This document shows positions 41,112 to 51,857 of a stretch of DNA of 51,857 nucleotides, in pieces. The position numbers and the translations under genes are program-made. The notes below the pieces were generated by a model. That model was not told the origin of the DNA and did not search any database. It was given only the letters and a program-made list of their open reading frames with translations. How positions within the stretch are numbered: the first letter of the stretch is position 1; the number at the start of each line of letters is the position of its first letter. The DNA is from Alkalinema sp. FACHB-956 (GTDB lineage: Bacteria > Cyanobacteriota > Cyanobacteriia > Leptolyngbyales > Leptolyngbyaceae), in NCBI RefSeq assembly GCF_014697025.1, contig NZ_JACJRC010000034.1:1-51857 (forward strand). Direction: 5' to 3'.

Positions 41112-41445
41112 AGGTTGCCTCGTGGGGATGCAAATGTGCTGCATCGATTCGGTGCATTCGGTGCATCAATCATACCGAGTATTTAGGGGCAGGATCAGCC
41201 GCTTTGCAACATTTCCGCCCGCCGCTCCGTAAACAGATGTTGCTCAACTGACCCCGTCCCAGAAAGGACTCGTTATCATGGGGAGCCTATGCCCGCGAGG
41301 CCCGATCGGAGGGAAATCCCGGAATGGGGGGTTCAGAGGTTGTTGATGCCCCCAACGGGGGTGGCTGATGGGCCTCGATAAAATCCACACCCACACTTTC
41401 CCCCTGACACATTGCCCCCTCACACAAGGTTCAGACAAGCTAGCT
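41112..41445. other. 334-bp spacer between divergent genes
   Basis: No gene is supported. A CCCCC/GGGGG hairpin (41349-41353 with 41357-41361) lies about 85 bp before the SLH-protein start, and TTCGGTGCA is repeated near 41145-41165. No clear promoter boxes were identified. Confidence 0.4.
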
Positions 41446-43707
41446 ATGGTGCAATCTTTCTCAGCGACACTCTACGTCAATCCCGCCACGGGGAATGACA
41501 GCAATCCTGGCTCCCAGGCTGCTCCATTCAAAACGATTACCGCTGCACTGCGACAGGCGAAGTCGGGCACGGGCATTCAACTCGCCCCCGGCACCTACAA
41601 TACGGCCAGTGGAGAAGTGTTTCCTCTGGTGGTGCCGACCGGCGTGGGAATCCTTGGAGATGAAGCCAGTAAAGGCAATGGGATCGTCGTGAATGGCGGT
41701 GGTAAGTACCTTAGCCCGACCTTCGCTGGCCAAAATGTTACGTTTAAATTGGATAGTAAAGCCCAATTACGCGGTATTACCGTCATTAATGGCGAAAGTC
41801 GGGGAACGGGCGCATGGGTAGAATCAACGGATCCAATAATTACTAACTGTACCTTTACCAATTGCAAACGAGAAGGCATTTTCACCACTGGCAGCGCCAA
41901 GGCGATCGTAACGGACTGTGTCTTTGTACAAAATGCAGCGAATGGAATTTCGATCGTGCGGGAATCCAAAGGGGAATTCCGGCGGAATGTCTGTCAAAAT
42001 ACGGGCTTTGGGATTGCGGTGGGGGATAGTGCAGCCCCCTTACTCGTGGAAAATAAAGCCTTTGAAAATCGATCGGGCGTTGTGATTTCCCGAGCTGCGC
42101 GTCCGGTACTACGCAACAATACGATCGAGCGTAATACCGAAAGTGGTTTAGTTGCCCTGGAAACCGCCTTCCCGGATTTGGGCAGCAGTCAGGAACCTGG
42201 CGGGAATTTGATGCGGGACAACGGTGAAGTAGATCTACAAAATGCTACGAATCCGCCAGTGACCTTTATTTCCGTGGGCAATCAACTCAATCCCGCCAAG
42301 GTACAAGGGCCGATCGATCTGCAAGCCAATGTAGTTCCGCCGTCCGTAACGCCGCCAGTCACACCCCCCGTTACTCCACCGGTGACGCCACCCGTCACTC
42401 CGCCCACGAATAACCCACCCACGAATAACCCGCCCACGAATAACCCGCCCACGAATAACCCGCCCACGAATAACCCGATCGTTGATCCACCTTTAGTCGA
42501 ACCGCCGGTCACGCCACCCGTCACACCGCCCGTCACGCCACCCACGGGACTCTCGGATATTCAAGGGCATTGGGCCCAGGCGTTTATTCAAGCGCTGGTC
42601 AGCCGGGGGTTTCTCAGCGGCTTTCCTGACGGGACCTTTAAACCTGAAGCACAACTGACCCGTGCCCAGTATGCAGCGGTACTAGCGAAAACCTTTGATT
42701 TGCCAGCGAAACGCAACGCCACAAAATTCTCCGATGTGCCAGCAAATTTCTGGGCAGCGGAAGCGATTGCCAAGGCAGATCGTATGGGCTTTATTGCCGG
42801 ATTCCCCGATGGCACGTTTCGACCGGGGTTGAACCTGACGCGGGTACAGGCGATCGTGGCACTGATCAACGGATTAGGGCTGACCGGGGGCCAAATTACG
42901 GCCTTGGGGGTTTACAACGATCGGGCTCAAATTCCCAGCTATGGCGTCAATGCAGTCACCACGGCCACCATTCGCCGGATGGTCGTCAACTATCCCGATG
43001 TCAAACAACTCAACCCCAACCGCGATATCACCCGCGCGGAAGTCTCTGCGCTGTTGTATCAAGCGTTAGTCTCGATTAACCGAGCTGAAGCGATTTCTTC
43101 GCAATACATTGTCAATCCAGATGCCACAACGATTCAATTTACCGATTTGAAGAATCACTGGTCTGAGAATTTTGTGTTGACGATGGCGCTACAGGACTAT
43201 ATGCGGGGCTTTGCCGATGGAACATTTAAGCCGGATGTTTCCATTACGCGGGCACAATTGGCGGCAGTGATTGCAAAAGCGTTCAATCCATCGCCCAAAC
43301 GAAATGCCGTGAATTTTAGTGACGTGCCGAGCGACTACTGGGCCAAACCCGCGATCGATCAAGCCTATCGTGGCGGGTTCCTGAATGCGGCAGCAGATGG
43401 CACCTTCAAGCCCAACCAAAACGTGACTCGCTTGCAACTCATCCAAGCCTTGGTCAGTGGATTGGGGCTGTCTGGTGGCAATTTGGCAGTGCTGAACAAT
43501 CTGAGCGATCGGGCGGCAATTCCAGCAGAAGTGCAGACGATCGTTGCAACGGCTATCCAGCAACGCCTGGTTGTCAGCTACCCCGACACCAAAAAGCTCA
43601 ATCCCAATCAGGATGCAACCCGTGGGGAACTGGCGGCCATGGTCTTGCAAGCGTTAGCCAAGGCAGGACGGGCTGTTGCGGTCAATTCGCCATACATCAT
43701 GGCCTAG
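41446..43707 (+). CDS. Beta-helix (DUF1565) protein with two SLH triplets
   Basis: The 753-residue protein starts MVQSFSATLYVNPATGNDSN. Residues 1-290 are a DUF1565/right-handed beta-helix (SQAAPFKTITAALRQA, ITNCTFTNCKREGIF, VTDCVFVQNAANGIS). A VTPP/TNNPP low-complexity linker follows (about 296-368). Six SLH repeats then occupy about 370-738 in two groups of three: ADGTF/PDGTF motifs in repeats 1, 2, 4 and 5, and YPDVKQLNPN / YPDTKKLNPN in repeats 3 and 6. SLH triplets bind cell-wall polymer. Neither this start nor the upstream frame to 41368 gives a signal peptide, which is odd for an SLH protein. Confidence 0.87.
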   Translation: MVQSFSATLYVNPATGNDSNPGSQAAPFKTITAALRQAKSGTGIQLAPGTYNTASGEVFPLVVPTGVGILGDEASKGNGIVVNGGGKYLSPTFAGQNVTFKLDSKAQLRGITVINGESRGTGAWVESTDPIITNCTFTNCKREGIFTTGSAKAIVTDCVFVQNAANGISIVRESKGEFRRNVCQNTGFGIAVGDSAAPLLVENKAFENRSGVVISRAARPVLRNNTIERNTESGLVALETAFPDLGSSQEPGGNLMRDNGEVDLQNATNPPVTFISVGNQLNPAKVQGPIDLQANVVPPSVTPPVTPPVTPPVTPPVTPPTNNPPTNNPPTNNPPTNNPPTNNPIVDPPLVEPPVTPPVTPPVTPPTGLSDIQGHWAQAFIQALVSRGFLSGFPDGTFKPEAQLTRAQYAAVLAKTFDLPAKRNATKFSDVPANFWAAEAIAKADRMGFIAGFPDGTFRPGLNLTRVQAIVALINGLGLTGGQITALGVYNDRAQIPSYGVNAVTTATIRRMVVNYPDVKQLNPNRDITRAEVSALLYQALVSINRAEAISSQYIVNPDATTIQFTDLKNHWSENFVLTMALQDYMRGFADGTFKPDVSITRAQLAAVIAKAFNPSPKRNAVNFSDVPSDYWAKPAIDQAYRGGFLNAAADGTFKPNQNVTRLQLIQALVSGLGLSGGNLAVLNNLSDRAAIPAEVQTIVATAIQQRLVVSYPDTKKLNPNQDATRGELAAMVLQALAKAGRAVAVNSPYIMA
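42401..42475. repeat. 15-bp tandem repeat coding for the TNNPP linker
   Basis: Five in-frame units of CGCCCACGAATAACC lie at 42401-42475; the second unit differs by one base. They are flanked by a GTCACGCCACCC-type repeat on both sides (about 42345-42400 and 42506-42545). It could be mistaken for a CRISPR array, but it is coding and has no spacers. Confidence 0.9.
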
Positions 43708-47675: not shown

Positions 47676-50051
47676 TTAACAAATATCTTTACGCTTTTGG
47701 AAGAATCCTGCAAGACATAAACAGACCACAATATGAATGCATAATAATCCCCAGTTCAGTGAGAGATTTGACCAATTCGCATCATAAACAGCACTAGGTT
47801 CTAACGGTCGAGGTAACAAACTTCCATCTGGTAATTTCTTTTGCTCTGGAATTAGAGCATTAAGATTGATCAGTGTGCCATAAGCTCCCACGGACCAACG
47901 ACCCAACATAAACCAGCCTAAAATTTTAGCCGCTCCATCGGTTGCAAAGAGTACACCAGAAAAAATGATTTGAGGAATTAAAAGTAATGGCAATGCACTA
48001 TTGGCTTGAGCAGTACTTCTGACTAAGCTGGAAATTAGTAAGCCTAGACTATAACTGGCAATTAAAGTCAGAAAATTGGTGACGGTTAATCCAATAGGCC
48101 AAGAGATCATCTCAGAAGTGGGAGACTGAAATACTATCATTACGACGATCGACATCAAGAGTGACTGAACCATTGCAATAGCTGCAAGAACCAAGACCTT
48201 TGATCCCAAGTAAGCAGATAAGCTCAAATTGACCAATCGTTCTCGAATGTAGATCGGCGTTTCTTTGACAATTTCTTGTAATGCACCCGAGAGGCCAACC
48301 CATAAGGAAGCACAGGTAAAAACAAAGAGAATTTTGATCGCTAGAGGAGCCAAGGTTGAGTCGGGAACTTCTGGCTTTAAAAAGGCTGCGTTATTTTTGA
48401 CAGCAAAACTGATTAGACTAACCCCGATCGGAGCAGTGATAAGAGAAATGATGAGATTAGCCTGATCTCGAAGGACTAACTGCCAATAGCGTTGGGTTAG
48501 GAGTTTCGTTTGTTCAATAAACGAGGGTTTTGCTTGAGTTGGTACAACAAAACCTATGGGAGCATTCTGTTGAAGACTCAAGTGATTTCGAATATAACGA
48601 TCGTAGTAGCTGGATTGACTGTAGTAATTTGCACAGTTGATGATATCATCTTGGTTTTCGAGTTTTGTATAAATGTCAGCGAAGTCATCTTCATTGAAAA
48701 ATTCATGGGCTTCTTGAGGTGGACCGAAGAAACAGAGAAAGCCACCGCGTCCCATAAAGGCGACTCGATCACAGAGTGTGACATTGGCTGTTGCATGCGT
48801 GACAAGAATGATGGTGCGACCTTCATCGGCAAGTTTTCGCAGGAGTTGCATCATTTTTTTATCCAACCCCGGATCAAGTCCTGAGGTTGGTTCATCTAGG
48901 AAAAATAATTTTGGATCTGCAAGTAGTTCCACACCAATGCAAACACGCTTTCTTTGCCCACCGCTGAGGAGTTGAATTTTTGTATTTTGCTGAGCGGGTG
49001 TGAGTTCAATTTGCTCTAATGTTTTGGCTACAATTACATCAATATTGGCATCTGGAGGAAGTCGAAGTTTTGCTGCGTAGGTGAGGGCTTCGAGAGCGGT
49101 TAAATCACGGTGAATGATATCATCTTGAGGGACGTAGCCGATTTGAGTGCGGTAAATATTGAAGTTCGATCGCAAGTCACAGCCATTGATTAAAACCTGC
49201 CCAGAAGTTGTCGGTTCTAACCCAAACAAAGCTTTCATCAGGGTTGACTTGCCTGCACCACTCCCACCGACTAAAGCAACAAATTGTCCTGGCTCGATCG
49301 CGAGGGTGACATCATTTAAAATCAGTTTAGTATTCTTGGCTTCATCGAGGACTTGCCGTTTTAATGAATAGGCATCTAGGCGAATCTGGGTTCCTGAGTC
49401 TAGAATGCGGAGCTGATTGTTTTGAACCATTAAAGTAAATGGCCCAATATTCACGGTCATGTTGTCTTCGATTGCAATGGAACTCTCCACCCGGCGACTA
49501 TTTGCAAAGATACCATTGACACTTTTGTCACATAACACATATCCAGAGGCTCGCTTTTCTATGGTGGCATGGATACGAGAGATTGTCGGAGCATCAAGCA
49601 CTAGGTCACAGGTGGAATCTCGTCCGATCGTGATGACTGAGCTATTTAAAAGAATAGATCGTGGACTTAACGTCTTAAGCTGGGTTGAGGCGGAAGGATC
49701 ACAGTAAGAGAGGAGAATCATATTACGGGGATCTTGCCCGACTTTAAGTGTCGTGCCATTTTTCAATCTGAAGCTTTCGGATACGGTGATTCTTGTCTGA
49801 TTTATAAATAATCCGTTGGTGCTGGGTTTATTCCCATCGCCGTCCAAAATTTCATAGTTATCTCCGATTCTCTGCAAAATTGCATGACAGCCAGAAATCA
49901 CATCCCAGTCTGGCGGCACTACAAGGTCACAAAGCTGAGGATTACGCCCCAAAACATGACGATCTCTGGTGAGGTCAAAACGGCAAACTTGGCCTTGTTT
50001 TTTCAGTTCAAGGTAGGGCGCTTGTCCAATGAGGGTTTCAGGGTGTGTCAT
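47676..50051 (-). CDS. Double-FHA ABC transporter, ABCG/ABC-2 type half-transporter
   Basis: The 791-residue protein has two FHA domains: GRNPQLCDLVVPP (35-47) with S53/H56, and GRDSTCDLVLDAPTISRIH (143-161) with SVNG (177-180). The ATPase domain has Walker A GGSGAGKST (262-270), signature LSGGQRKR (362-369) and Walker B FFLDEP (383-388). The C-terminal membrane domain of about six segments starts near 545 (NLIISLITAPIGVSLISFAV). FHA domains bind phosphothreonine, so transport is probably controlled by a Ser/Thr kinase. The divergent gene at 50504 encodes one. The exported substrate is unknown. Confidence 0.92.
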   Translation of the reverse strand: MTHPETLIGQAPYLELKKQGQVCRFDLTRDRHVLGRNPQLCDLVVPPDWDVISGCHAILQRIGDNYEILDGDGNKPSTNGLFINQTRITVSESFRLKNGTTLKVGQDPRNMILLSYCDPSASTQLKTLSPRSILLNSSVITIGRDSTCDLVLDAPTISRIHATIEKRASGYVLCDKSVNGIFANSRRVESSIAIEDNMTVNIGPFTLMVQNNQLRILDSGTQIRLDAYSLKRQVLDEAKNTKLILNDVTLAIEPGQFVALVGGSGAGKSTLMKALFGLEPTTSGQVLINGCDLRSNFNIYRTQIGYVPQDDIIHRDLTALEALTYAAKLRLPPDANIDVIVAKTLEQIELTPAQQNTKIQLLSGGQRKRVCIGVELLADPKLFFLDEPTSGLDPGLDKKMMQLLRKLADEGRTIILVTHATANVTLCDRVAFMGRGGFLCFFGPPQEAHEFFNEDDFADIYTKLENQDDIINCANYYSQSSYYDRYIRNHLSLQQNAPIGFVVPTQAKPSFIEQTKLLTQRYWQLVLRDQANLIISLITAPIGVSLISFAVKNNAAFLKPEVPDSTLAPLAIKILFVFTCASLWVGLSGALQEIVKETPIYIRERLVNLSLSAYLGSKVLVLAAIAMVQSLLMSIVVMIVFQSPTSEMISWPIGLTVTNFLTLIASYSLGLLISSLVRSTAQANSALPLLLIPQIIFSGVLFATDGAAKILGWFMLGRWSVGAYGTLINLNALIPEQKKLPDGSLLPRPLEPSAVYDANWSNLSLNWGLLCIHIVVCLCLAGFFQKRKDIC

Positions 50052-50503
50052 GGGCAGTTTGGCAAAAGGAAATGACGATGGCCACTTTTACTTTAAGCGA
50101 AAAATCCACCGTCAAACCAGAGGAATAAAATCCCTAAAAGACTGTTGTACCAAAGCTTGTGACCACTGCTAACGGTAGACAAAACGATCCGGACTTTATT
50201 ATTCTTGTTTAACAAATTTTGTGGATTTTACTGTTGTTTTGTAATTTTTTCTTAAAGAAAGTCTATTCGTCAAGCCGAATTTAGTTTTTTCGGTAACTTG
50301 AAAGATGATTGTCACTCTAGTGTAGAGATTCTGAGGCTAGATGTGGGCTAACTAAGGTTTAAGACTTGAGGGGCAATATATTTTTCAGGAATGAGATTTC
50401 TTGCTGATGTAGTTCGGAAAGAAACTCAAACCAGGTTTGAGTTTCGAAATCTTCAACATAAAAGCACTTACAACGTATTGATAGGTGGATAGGGGCAATC
50501 GCG
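50052..50503. other. 452-bp divergent control region between the FHA transporter and kinase genes
   Basis: This AT-rich stretch should carry both promoters. It holds a 25-bp palindrome (50421-50445) and a 33-codon plus-strand ORF (50391-50492) that contains the palindrome and ends 11 bp before the kinase ATG. The ORF has no good ribosome binding site and is not called as a gene. Confidence 0.5.
50421..50445. promoter_or_regulatory. 25-bp palindrome upstream of the kinase gene
   Basis: GAAACTCAAACC (50421-50432) and GGTTTGAGTTTC (50434-50445) are perfect inverted halves around A50433. As DNA it looks like a dimer operator; as RNA it forms a 10-bp stem with a 5-nt loop. It is followed by CGAAAT and not by a T-run, so a terminator is unlikely. 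Confidence 0.5.
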
Positions 50504-51745
50504 ATGATGATGGATTTGGTGAGCAATCGCTATCGGGTGGTGCGTGAGCTGGGCAAGGGAGGTTTTGGAACAACTTCGTTGGTAGAGGATACGCAGCTTC
50601 CTTCGGGGCGGCGCTGTGTATTGAAGGAGTTGATGCCTGTAGAGAGTAGTCCTGAGATTTATGCGTTGGTACAGCAGCGGTTTGAGCGGGAAGCCGCGAT
50701 TTTGGAAGAGTTGGGCAATTTGACGCTTCAGATCCCGAGTCTTTATGCGTATTTTGCGGAGAATGGGAAGTTCTATTTGGTTCAGGAATATGTAGAGGGA
50801 GAGACAATCGCAGAGCGGGTGCAAACTCAGGGTGTGATGAGTGATGCGGCGGTGCGAGAGTGGCTGATGGGGTTGCTTCCGGTACTAGGGCTGGTGCATG
50901 AACGTAAAATTATTCATCGGGATATTAAGCCGGAAAATGTGATTTTGCGGCAGCGGGATCATAAACCTGTACTCATTGATTTTGGTGCGGTGCGGGAGAC
51001 GATGGGGACGTTGATCAATGCAAATGGTCAGAGTACTCAGTCGATTGTGATTGGAACGCCTGGGTTTATGGCGAGTGAGCAGGCAGCGGGTCGGCCAGTA
51101 TTTGCGAGTGATTTGTATAGTTTGGGTTTGACAGCAATTTATGCTTTAACGGGTAAGATACCGCAGGAACTGCCGACGGATCCGATGACAGGAAATATCC
51201 AATGGCGTCAGTTTGCGCCGACGGTGAGTGCGGGGTTAGCGACGGTGATTGATCGGGCGATTATGCCTGTAAGTCGCGATAGATATCAAACGTCAGGGCA
51301 AATGCAAAGTGAGTTGATGGGATCAAATGAATCAAATCCTATTCCAGGAACAGTTATTTCGATGACACCAGCAACTATCTCAAATCCTATGCCTGTAATG
51401 ACAGTACCTCCTGTCGAGCAATATCCTAATACTAATAATTCTAATTCTCAGCCTACTATTGTTGTAGCCCATCCTCTAAGTTCTTCGTCACAACCCATAC
51501 AACCGCAGAGCCCACACAGTATAGCTGTTACACCGAAACAAGGTCTGAGCGACTGGGCTAAAGCCATGATTATGGGTGGACTTATTGGGACATTCATATT
51601 AATTGCAATTGTTCTCACTCGTCCACAACAAACCACGCAGGCTTCGAATAACACTCCTACTACTGCAACTACACCTGCTGCTCCCTCCCCATCACCTTCT
51701 ACAGTACCATCGCCTGTTGCTACAGTTTCCGGCGTTGCTGAATAG
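50504..51745 (+). CDS. Membrane-anchored Ser/Thr protein kinase
   Basis: The 413-residue protein has a kinase domain at about 10-272: glycine-rich loop ELGKGGFGTTSLV (15-27), catalytic Lys41 (VLKEL), HRDIKPEN (138-145), DFG (159-161) and GTPGFMASEQ. A Pro/Ser/Thr-rich juxtamembrane stretch (about 275-345), one membrane segment (AMIMGGLIGTFILIAIVL, about 354-371) and a short Thr/Pro-rich outer tail follow. AGGGG lies 8 nt before the first of three adjacent ATGs. It is a PknB-like (Hanks type) kinase. The divergent double-FHA transporter is a probable phospho-target. Confidence 0.93.
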   Translation: MMMDLVSNRYRVVRELGKGGFGTTSLVEDTQLPSGRRCVLKELMPVESSPEIYALVQQRFEREAAILEELGNLTLQIPSLYAYFAENGKFYLVQEYVEGETIAERVQTQGVMSDAAVREWLMGLLPVLGLVHERKIIHRDIKPENVILRQRDHKPVLIDFGAVRETMGTLINANGQSTQSIVIGTPGFMASEQAAGRPVFASDLYSLGLTAIYALTGKIPQELPTDPMTGNIQWRQFAPTVSAGLATVIDRAIMPVSRDRYQTSGQMQSELMGSNESNPIPGTVISMTPATISNPMPVMTVPPVEQYPNTNNSNSQPTIVVAHPLSSSSQPIQPQSPHSIAVTPKQGLSDWAKAMIMGGLIGTFILIAIVLTRPQQTTQASNNTPTTATTPAAPSPSPSTVPSPVATVSGVAE

Positions 51746-51857
51746 GGATATGATTTACTGTGGGACGGGCACATCACCAAATTTGAGATAATGCAGTAGC
51801 AGGCGAATTGAGTGCTTCAGCATTTCTACAGATTTGGAATAACACAAGGTCTTACGA
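51746..51857. other. Right-edge spacer
   Basis: The last 112 bases contain no supported gene. The kinase tail ends at 51745, and nothing further is recognisable before the window stops. Confidence 0.5.

Follow-up and report, generated by a model that had tools for sequence, protein, structure and literature searches.

A double-FHA ABC exporter divergent from a membrane Ser/Thr kinase: a candidate phosphorylation-controlled export module of cyanobacteria

FHA domains bind phosphothreonine, and the bacterial Ser/Thr kinases PknB and StkP sense the cell wall. In Rv1747, a double-FHA transporter of Mycobacterium tuberculosis, the linker between the FHA domains is extended and carries phospho-acceptors. 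Excerpts of the published work describe Rv1747 as an in vitro substrate of the kinase PknF, which modulates it positively (PMC3908365), and link it to phosphatidyl-myo-inositol mannosides and cell-wall components (PMC5549992; PMC3908365). In the accessible passages of a review, the linker joining the FHA domains is disordered, and phosphorylation promotes condensation of the FHA part of the protein (PMC9312465). Here we describe a comparable locus in the cyanobacterium Alkalinema sp. FACHB-956, where a double-FHA ABC exporter and a membrane Ser/Thr kinase are encoded divergently near the end of contig NZ_JACJRC010000034.1. The window analysed is this entire contig (C34; 51,857 bp), one of the 59 contigs of the 6.16 Mb genome. 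Judging from sequence comparisons, the locus may be a phosphorylation-controlled export module of cyanobacteria, with predicted phosphorylation, docking and cargo, a reading whose chances of being right or wrong appear to us evenly balanced.

The two genes, their domains and the region between them are the following.

47676..50051, minus strand: double-FHA ABC exporter of 791 amino acids, ATPase and membrane domain in a single chain (open reading frame, ORF, and Pfam)
49737..49955, minus strand: FHA domain 1, with R36, S53, H56 and N79 (PF00498)
49443..49634, minus strand: FHA domain 2, with R144, S158, H161 and N179 (PF00498)
48885..49322, minus strand: ABC ATPase domain (ABC_tran), residues 244-389 (PF00005)
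47910..48518, minus strand: ABC-2 type membrane domain (ABC2_membrane), residues 512-714 (PF01061)
50052..50503, no strand: divergent intergenic region, 452 bp
50504..51745, plus strand: Ser/Thr kinase ORF of 413 amino acids, truncated; native coding up to 51730, the remainder encoded by an insertion sequence (IS)
50531..51199, plus strand: kinase catalytic domain, residues 10-232 (PF00069)
51563..51619, plus strand: transmembrane helix, residues about 354-372 (hydropathy)

Similarly to the PknF-Rv1747 system, two FHA domains, an ATPase and a membrane domain are found in one chain, a Ser/Thr kinase gene adjoins, and the FHA region matches the Rv1747 chains 6cah and 6ccd in sequence, 6cah ranking third of 12 PDB matches (E 8.5e-6) behind kanadaptin and EmbR. 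PknF and Rv1747, however, form a two-gene operon, whereas the cyanobacterial pair is mostly divergent, and the cyanobacterial kinase often has a D,D-peptidase-type gene next to it and carries different extracytoplasmic domains (SH3b, IMS, Peripla_BP). Instead of a disordered linker, the window exporter has 34 residues between its two Pfam FHA matches and a candidate threonine before FHA1. No extended linker was found between the FHA domains, and the exporter is therefore likened here to the Rv1747 type in its presumed mode of action rather than filed as a member of it. The proposed logic of the locus is that of PknF-Rv1747, from which the different layout, the peptidase partner, the exchangeable sensors and a candidate common motif set it apart.

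In excerpts of a 2007 survey of the cyanobacterial Spk/Pkn kinases (cbSTK families), the kinase domain is accompanied by extra domains, mostly C-terminal, as is the case here, and the SH3b-bearing kinase SpkD is listed (PMC2176072). The survey contains no word beginning with ABC, and its accessible passages do not describe exporter neighbours (PMC2176072). The module is likewise not described in the parts of the literature on cyanobacterial FHA exporters and kinases that were accessible, including PMC2176072 and PMC11863333, a search that leaves subscription papers mostly outside and is no proof of absence; as far as it goes, the divergent layout, the peptidase partner and the motif are new. 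Among PDB sequences, the catalytic domain is matched best by bacterial kinases of the PknB type, including the wall-sensing PknB and StkP themselves. Unlike these, the scanned kinases have no PASTA match; their C-terminal parts carry SH3b or SH3_3, ARC6-like IMS, Peripla_BP_6, PsbP/DcrB-like or, in one kinase, TIR plus AAA domains, and several carry none.

The exporter was detected in 84 of the 388 genomes of the class (E 1e-120). Flanking regions were fetched for 74 loci (20 + 54), picked before the flanks were inspected, further places, many of them in members of genera g46 and g111, lying outside this set. The 75 tabulated loci are the fetched set without L039, plus the window and L086, a locus of genome G015 which was included because of its kinase and was found to hold the start of an exporter. 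Two of these loci (L048 and L179) have no upstream gene in view, and 73 were counted. Genes were called with a simple ORF script, ORFs below 100 amino acids being skipped in the position counts unless they matched a kinase or the exporter, and kinases were recognized by a profile made from the kinases of this analysis.

In 19 of the 73 cyanobacterial exporter loci a kinase is encoded directly upstream (the one at L040 being a WD40 protein whose kinase domain is partial), compared with 10 of 524 pooled control positions (Fisher p 3.7e-12), and in 17 of the 19 it is divergent. Downstream, the first gene is a kinase in 2 of 71 loci. The upstream enrichment is also seen with one locus per genus (12/49 vs 8/353, p 1.8e-7) and without the window, G015 and L040 (16/70 vs 8/505, p 1.5e-10). 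Divergent orientation is found in 17/19 kinase upstream genes and 20/54 non-kinase upstream genes, and the divergent pairs are spread over 12 of 49 genera and 7 of 19 families. When two genes upstream and one downstream are considered, a kinase is found in 26 of the 75 loci, some of these kinases lying on the same strand (e.g., L047, L051, L159 and L175) or convergently (L151 and L179). The preliminary description of this DNA had pointed to conservation of the divergent pair as a check on its reading, which the absence of the pair from relatives would speak against; by these counts the pair is conserved.

The pair is also divergent in the two nearest exporter-bearing relatives, G015, where it was recovered across two contigs via the exporter N-terminus, and G024, which is placed in the same family. 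The kinases at this position in both have a helix and tail unlike those of the window kinase, and no Pfam domain is found there. The exporter gene of G024 (locus L052) is spread over several frames and appears broken. The divergent arrangement and the 452-bp gap, as first described, were reproduced when coordinates and domains were recomputed from ORFs and Pfam. The further suggestion of a shared control region fared less well: the length is right, but conservation is lacking, since the corresponding stretches of the two nearest relatives measure 172 and 200 bp (172 bp in the stretch aligned at L052) and do not resemble the window region significantly (the best match spans 14 bp, E 0.12). Between 50000 and 50560 there are three sigma-70-like, promoter-like matches compared with 1.2 (standard deviation 1.1) in shuffled sequences, and with this count in a region that is not conserved, promoter sharing was dropped as evidence.

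A tree of 76 kinase domains places 15 of 18 divergent kinases in one 38-row clade, which also contains 21 unlinked kinases; the remaining three sit at two further places. Well-supported (starred) branches force at least seven gains or losses of the divergent state, which therefore does not go back to one inherited event. So the kinase partner here has changed repeatedly while the arrangement recurred, and the occurrence of kinases from three places of the tree at the same position counts in favour of a module.

The window exporter carries its two FHA domains N-terminal to the ABC ATPase and ABC-2 membrane domains, and its ORF is intact. The residues R, S, H and N, which we take to be the phosphothreonine-binding ones, are all present in both FHA domains. 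Among the 60 main-group homologues (the FHA and motif counts leave out 13 of the 73 exporters in the alignment as too distant or incomplete), the set is complete in FHA2 of all 60, and in FHA1 R is found in 60, S in 57, N in 59 and H in 27, with R and N both present in 59. The initial label of an ABCG-type transporter fits only loosely: among NCBIfam models the ABCG-like TIGR00955 matches best, but its 211 bits fall far short of the cut-off of 736 bits, and the best PDB sequence matches are ABCA lipid transporters.

The kinase has a Hanks-type catalytic domain (PF00069, E 1.6e-30), in which VLK (Lys), HRDIKPEN (HRD) and DFG are legible in translation. Past this domain the ORF comprises an 86-residue linker, a single helix and a short tail. 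The juxtamembrane region had been called Ser/Thr-rich and a natural FHA docking site. The cytoplasmic linker (residues 268-353; Ser plus Thr 24% vs 12% in the catalytic domain) is indeed rich in these residues and could serve for docking, unlike the still richer stretch past the helix: from the topology that stretch must be extracytoplasmic, and it therefore cannot meet cytoplasmic FHA domains. Three candidate sites were recognized on the cytoplasmic side.

50016..50036, minus strand: exporter N-terminal motif T6-LIGQAP, candidate phosphothreonine site before FHA1
51350..51370, plus strand: motif with T283 in the juxtamembrane linker of the kinase (PGTVISMTP), candidate site of autophosphorylation and FHA docking
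51455..51475, plus strand: motif with T318 in the juxtamembrane linker of the kinase (QPTIVVAHP), candidate site of autophosphorylation and FHA docking

T[VILM][VILMF] occurs in 41 of the 60 exporter N-termini, with 10.3 (standard deviation 2.8) expected by shuffling, and T[VIL][VIL][SAV] in 14 of 21 linked kinase linkers, with 0.95 expected, comparisons in which the shuffles overstate significance because the homologues are related. The linker counts cover kinases with a helix of hydropathy 1.6 and a linker of 25 to 220 residues. The low conservation around the exporter motif (median identity to the window exporter 35% in residues 1-20) limits, but does not remove, the concern about kinship. 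The exporter motif is present in at least half of the members in 28 of 40 genera, and the first 30 residues of other ORFs contain it in 69 of 565 cases (12%). A version of the linker motif with Ser in place of Thr was found in none of the 21 linked and one of 23 unlinked linkers, and the reversed motif in one of the 21 linked ones; the preference for Thr over Ser fits the phosphothreonine-binding FHA domains. Separately, three distant exporter relatives of about 1000 amino acids (L191-L193) have PGTVV or PGTLV upstream of the aligned FHA domain, and this PGT with two aliphatic residues is close to the PGTVIS of the window kinase. One of the three, L193, is divergent from a kinase-TIR-AAA fusion.

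The kinase gene of the window is interrupted at the contig end. Elements of the IS1 family produce short target duplications of 8-9 bp, and the following features were located.

51723..51730, no strand: 8-bp target site duplication CAGTTTCC, found again on contig C22 behind the far end of the IS
51731..51857, no strand: left end of an IS1-family element that runs off the contig, its 127 bp shared with contigs C25 and C47

The 127 bp that close the window recur unchanged at the ends of C25 and C47, and each of the three left ends of the element that were found lies at a contig end; the element accounts for the stop of the contig at this point. The kinase ORF takes its last four residues (GVAE, then stop) from the inserted element and is therefore a truncated gene. 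Contig C22 begins with the far end of the element, followed by CAGTTTCC and then by in-frame sequence that continues the kinases of relatives; this remainder ends in an SH3b domain (PF08239), with a vanY D,D-carboxypeptidase gene next. The far end was located via a VanY search, and its right terminal repeat differs, the terminal inverted repeats of the element being near-identical. On C22 the element encodes an InsA N-terminal domain/zinc ribbon (PF03811, 27.7 bits vs a cut-off of 26.1) and is therefore assigned to the IS1 family; a 33-residue fragment from the opposite end matched no Pfam family, the contigs covering the ends of the element only. From the duplication and the reading frame, rather than from a spanning read, we infer that C34 joins C22. 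In genome G031 a kinase 72% identical to that of the window has the same SH3b end and a VanY relative next. Before the insertion, the genes most likely stood in the order exporter, kinase-SH3b, vanY. As the insertion removes the sensor from the kinase, the exporter would therefore be left with an unregulated membrane kinase or none.

Of 18 loci with a divergent kinase among the first two upstream genes, 10 have a relative of VanY (PF02557) or Beta-lactamase2 (PF13354) after the kinase (5 + 5; by BLAST, with Pfam on several), or 11 when the window is counted through C22, which ties the module to peptidoglycan. VanY matches in this genome number only two. Together, the D,D-peptidase and the SH3b sensors suggest peptidoglycan as the signal.

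The intact module, as we would picture it, comprises a double-FHA ABC exporter divergent from a one-helix kinase with an extracytoplasmic sensor (here SH3b), and then vanY. The sensor would read the state of peptidoglycan or the envelope, and the kinase would phosphorylate Thr-aliphatic-aliphatic motifs in its own juxtamembrane linker and in the N-terminal tail of the exporter. The FHA domains of the exporter would bind these phosphothreonines, such that the exporter docks on the kinase, exporters cluster, or both, and activity changes; the cargo would most likely be an envelope component. Phosphorylation, docking, the direction of the effect, signal and cargo are all parts that we infer. The original proposal that the kinase directly recruits or gates the exporter thus appears partly supported. 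More tentatively, and with the probability tilted against it, the system could be a widespread wall-status module, in which kinases with interchangeable sensors, together with D,D-peptidase-type enzymes, write one Thr-aliphatic-aliphatic-Ser/Ala/Val code on their own linkers and a like site on the exporter tail, and the exporter docks on the active kinase, coupling peptidoglycan trimming to the export of envelope components. If the module works as pictured, phospho-gated FHA exporters would no longer be a single example centred on a pathogen but would reach broadly into photosynthetic bacteria, concrete candidate phosphosites and their readers would be provided, and cyanobacterial Ser/Thr kinases would be tied to peptidoglycan remodelling and envelope export.

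Several observations weigh against a phosphorylation-controlled module. Most loci, 54 of 73, have no kinase immediately upstream, and in five of these the divergent gene is a member of a nitrite/sulphite reductase-type cluster. On the kinase tree the divergent label changes 9 times, compared with 16.4 in shuffles; it is clustered, and the loci are therefore not all independent. These points would be expected if the genes were adjacent by descent with no functional link, an explanation that we nevertheless consider very improbable in view of the upstream enrichment (19/73 vs 10/524), which holds at one locus per genus and without the doubtful loci, and of the at least seven forced changes of state. 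The three tree places of the divergent kinases also count against the picture of one kinase for one exporter, the position having changed hands several times. Gln replaces His at the SxxH position of FHA1 in 33 of 60 homologues; the exchange bears no relation to linkage and was rejected as a marker of it. Among the loci there is no conserved biosynthetic neighbour that would hint at the cargo.

The kinase gene of this genome is itself split, and the insertion may have inactivated it, leaving the exporter unregulated or on its way out. For such decay in this strain speak the target duplication, the broken exporter of G024 and the lack of a close second kinase copy, a single other kinase of the genome matching at E 1e-60 or better with 47% identity. 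Yet the catalytic domain, the juxtamembrane motifs and the helix all precede the insertion, an IS-encoded stop closes the kinase ORF four residues on, the exporter has an intact ORF, and the element could be recent or polymorphic; decay is a serious possibility, although we incline against it. A somewhat less probable account, and on balance an unlikely one, is that the FHA domains of the exporter read threonine phosphorylation by many kinases, the divergent kinase mainly regulating its operon partner (VanY or beta-lactamase-fold), with divergence reflecting shared regulation and not private recruitment. The linker motif is enriched also in unlinked kinases (8/23, with 1.36 expected), and the exporter motif is found in 7 of 14 exporters beside a divergent kinase and in 27 of 37 without a nearby kinase; the motif is therefore not a private code of the pair, and was rejected as such. 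Kinase-VanY couples without an adjoining exporter exist in G031, G006, G033 and G029, as does a kinase-Bla couple at another kinase of G015, and the present genome has 32 kinase matches, 31 of them above the Pfam cut-off, besides 13 FHA matches. Against this account, the enrichment is specific to a single side and orientation and returns with kinases from different clades, more than would be expected from co-regulation with random partners.

Some further observations concern the neighbourhoods. The nitrite/sulphite reductase-type loci (L167, L169, L172, L173 and L178) have a divergent protein of about 640 amino acids that forms one BLAST cluster, typed by Pfam in L173. In L186 and L187, which belong to one family, the divergent gene clusters with kinases but has no kinase-domain match, the Pfam scan covering L186 (Peripla_BP_6), and the next gene, without a Pfam match in either, is vWA-like by eye. 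A conserved metabolic neighbour was discarded as a clue to the cargo, the only recurrent neighbours being the kinase, VanY, Beta-lactamase2 and the five-locus reductase-type cluster; other BLAST clusters of neighbours are mixed or small, the small ones (two or three loci) lying mostly within related genomes. ORF sizes had raised the suspicion of a PP2C phosphatase next to the exporter, but the 20 neighbours scanned include none. FHA and kinase matches lie side by side at two further places in this genome (C3:53808-55756 and C39:23687-24847). Elsewhere in the window, positions 41368-43707 hold an ORF of 779 amino acids with a stretch of PPVTPPVT and NNPPT repeats, read in translation alone.

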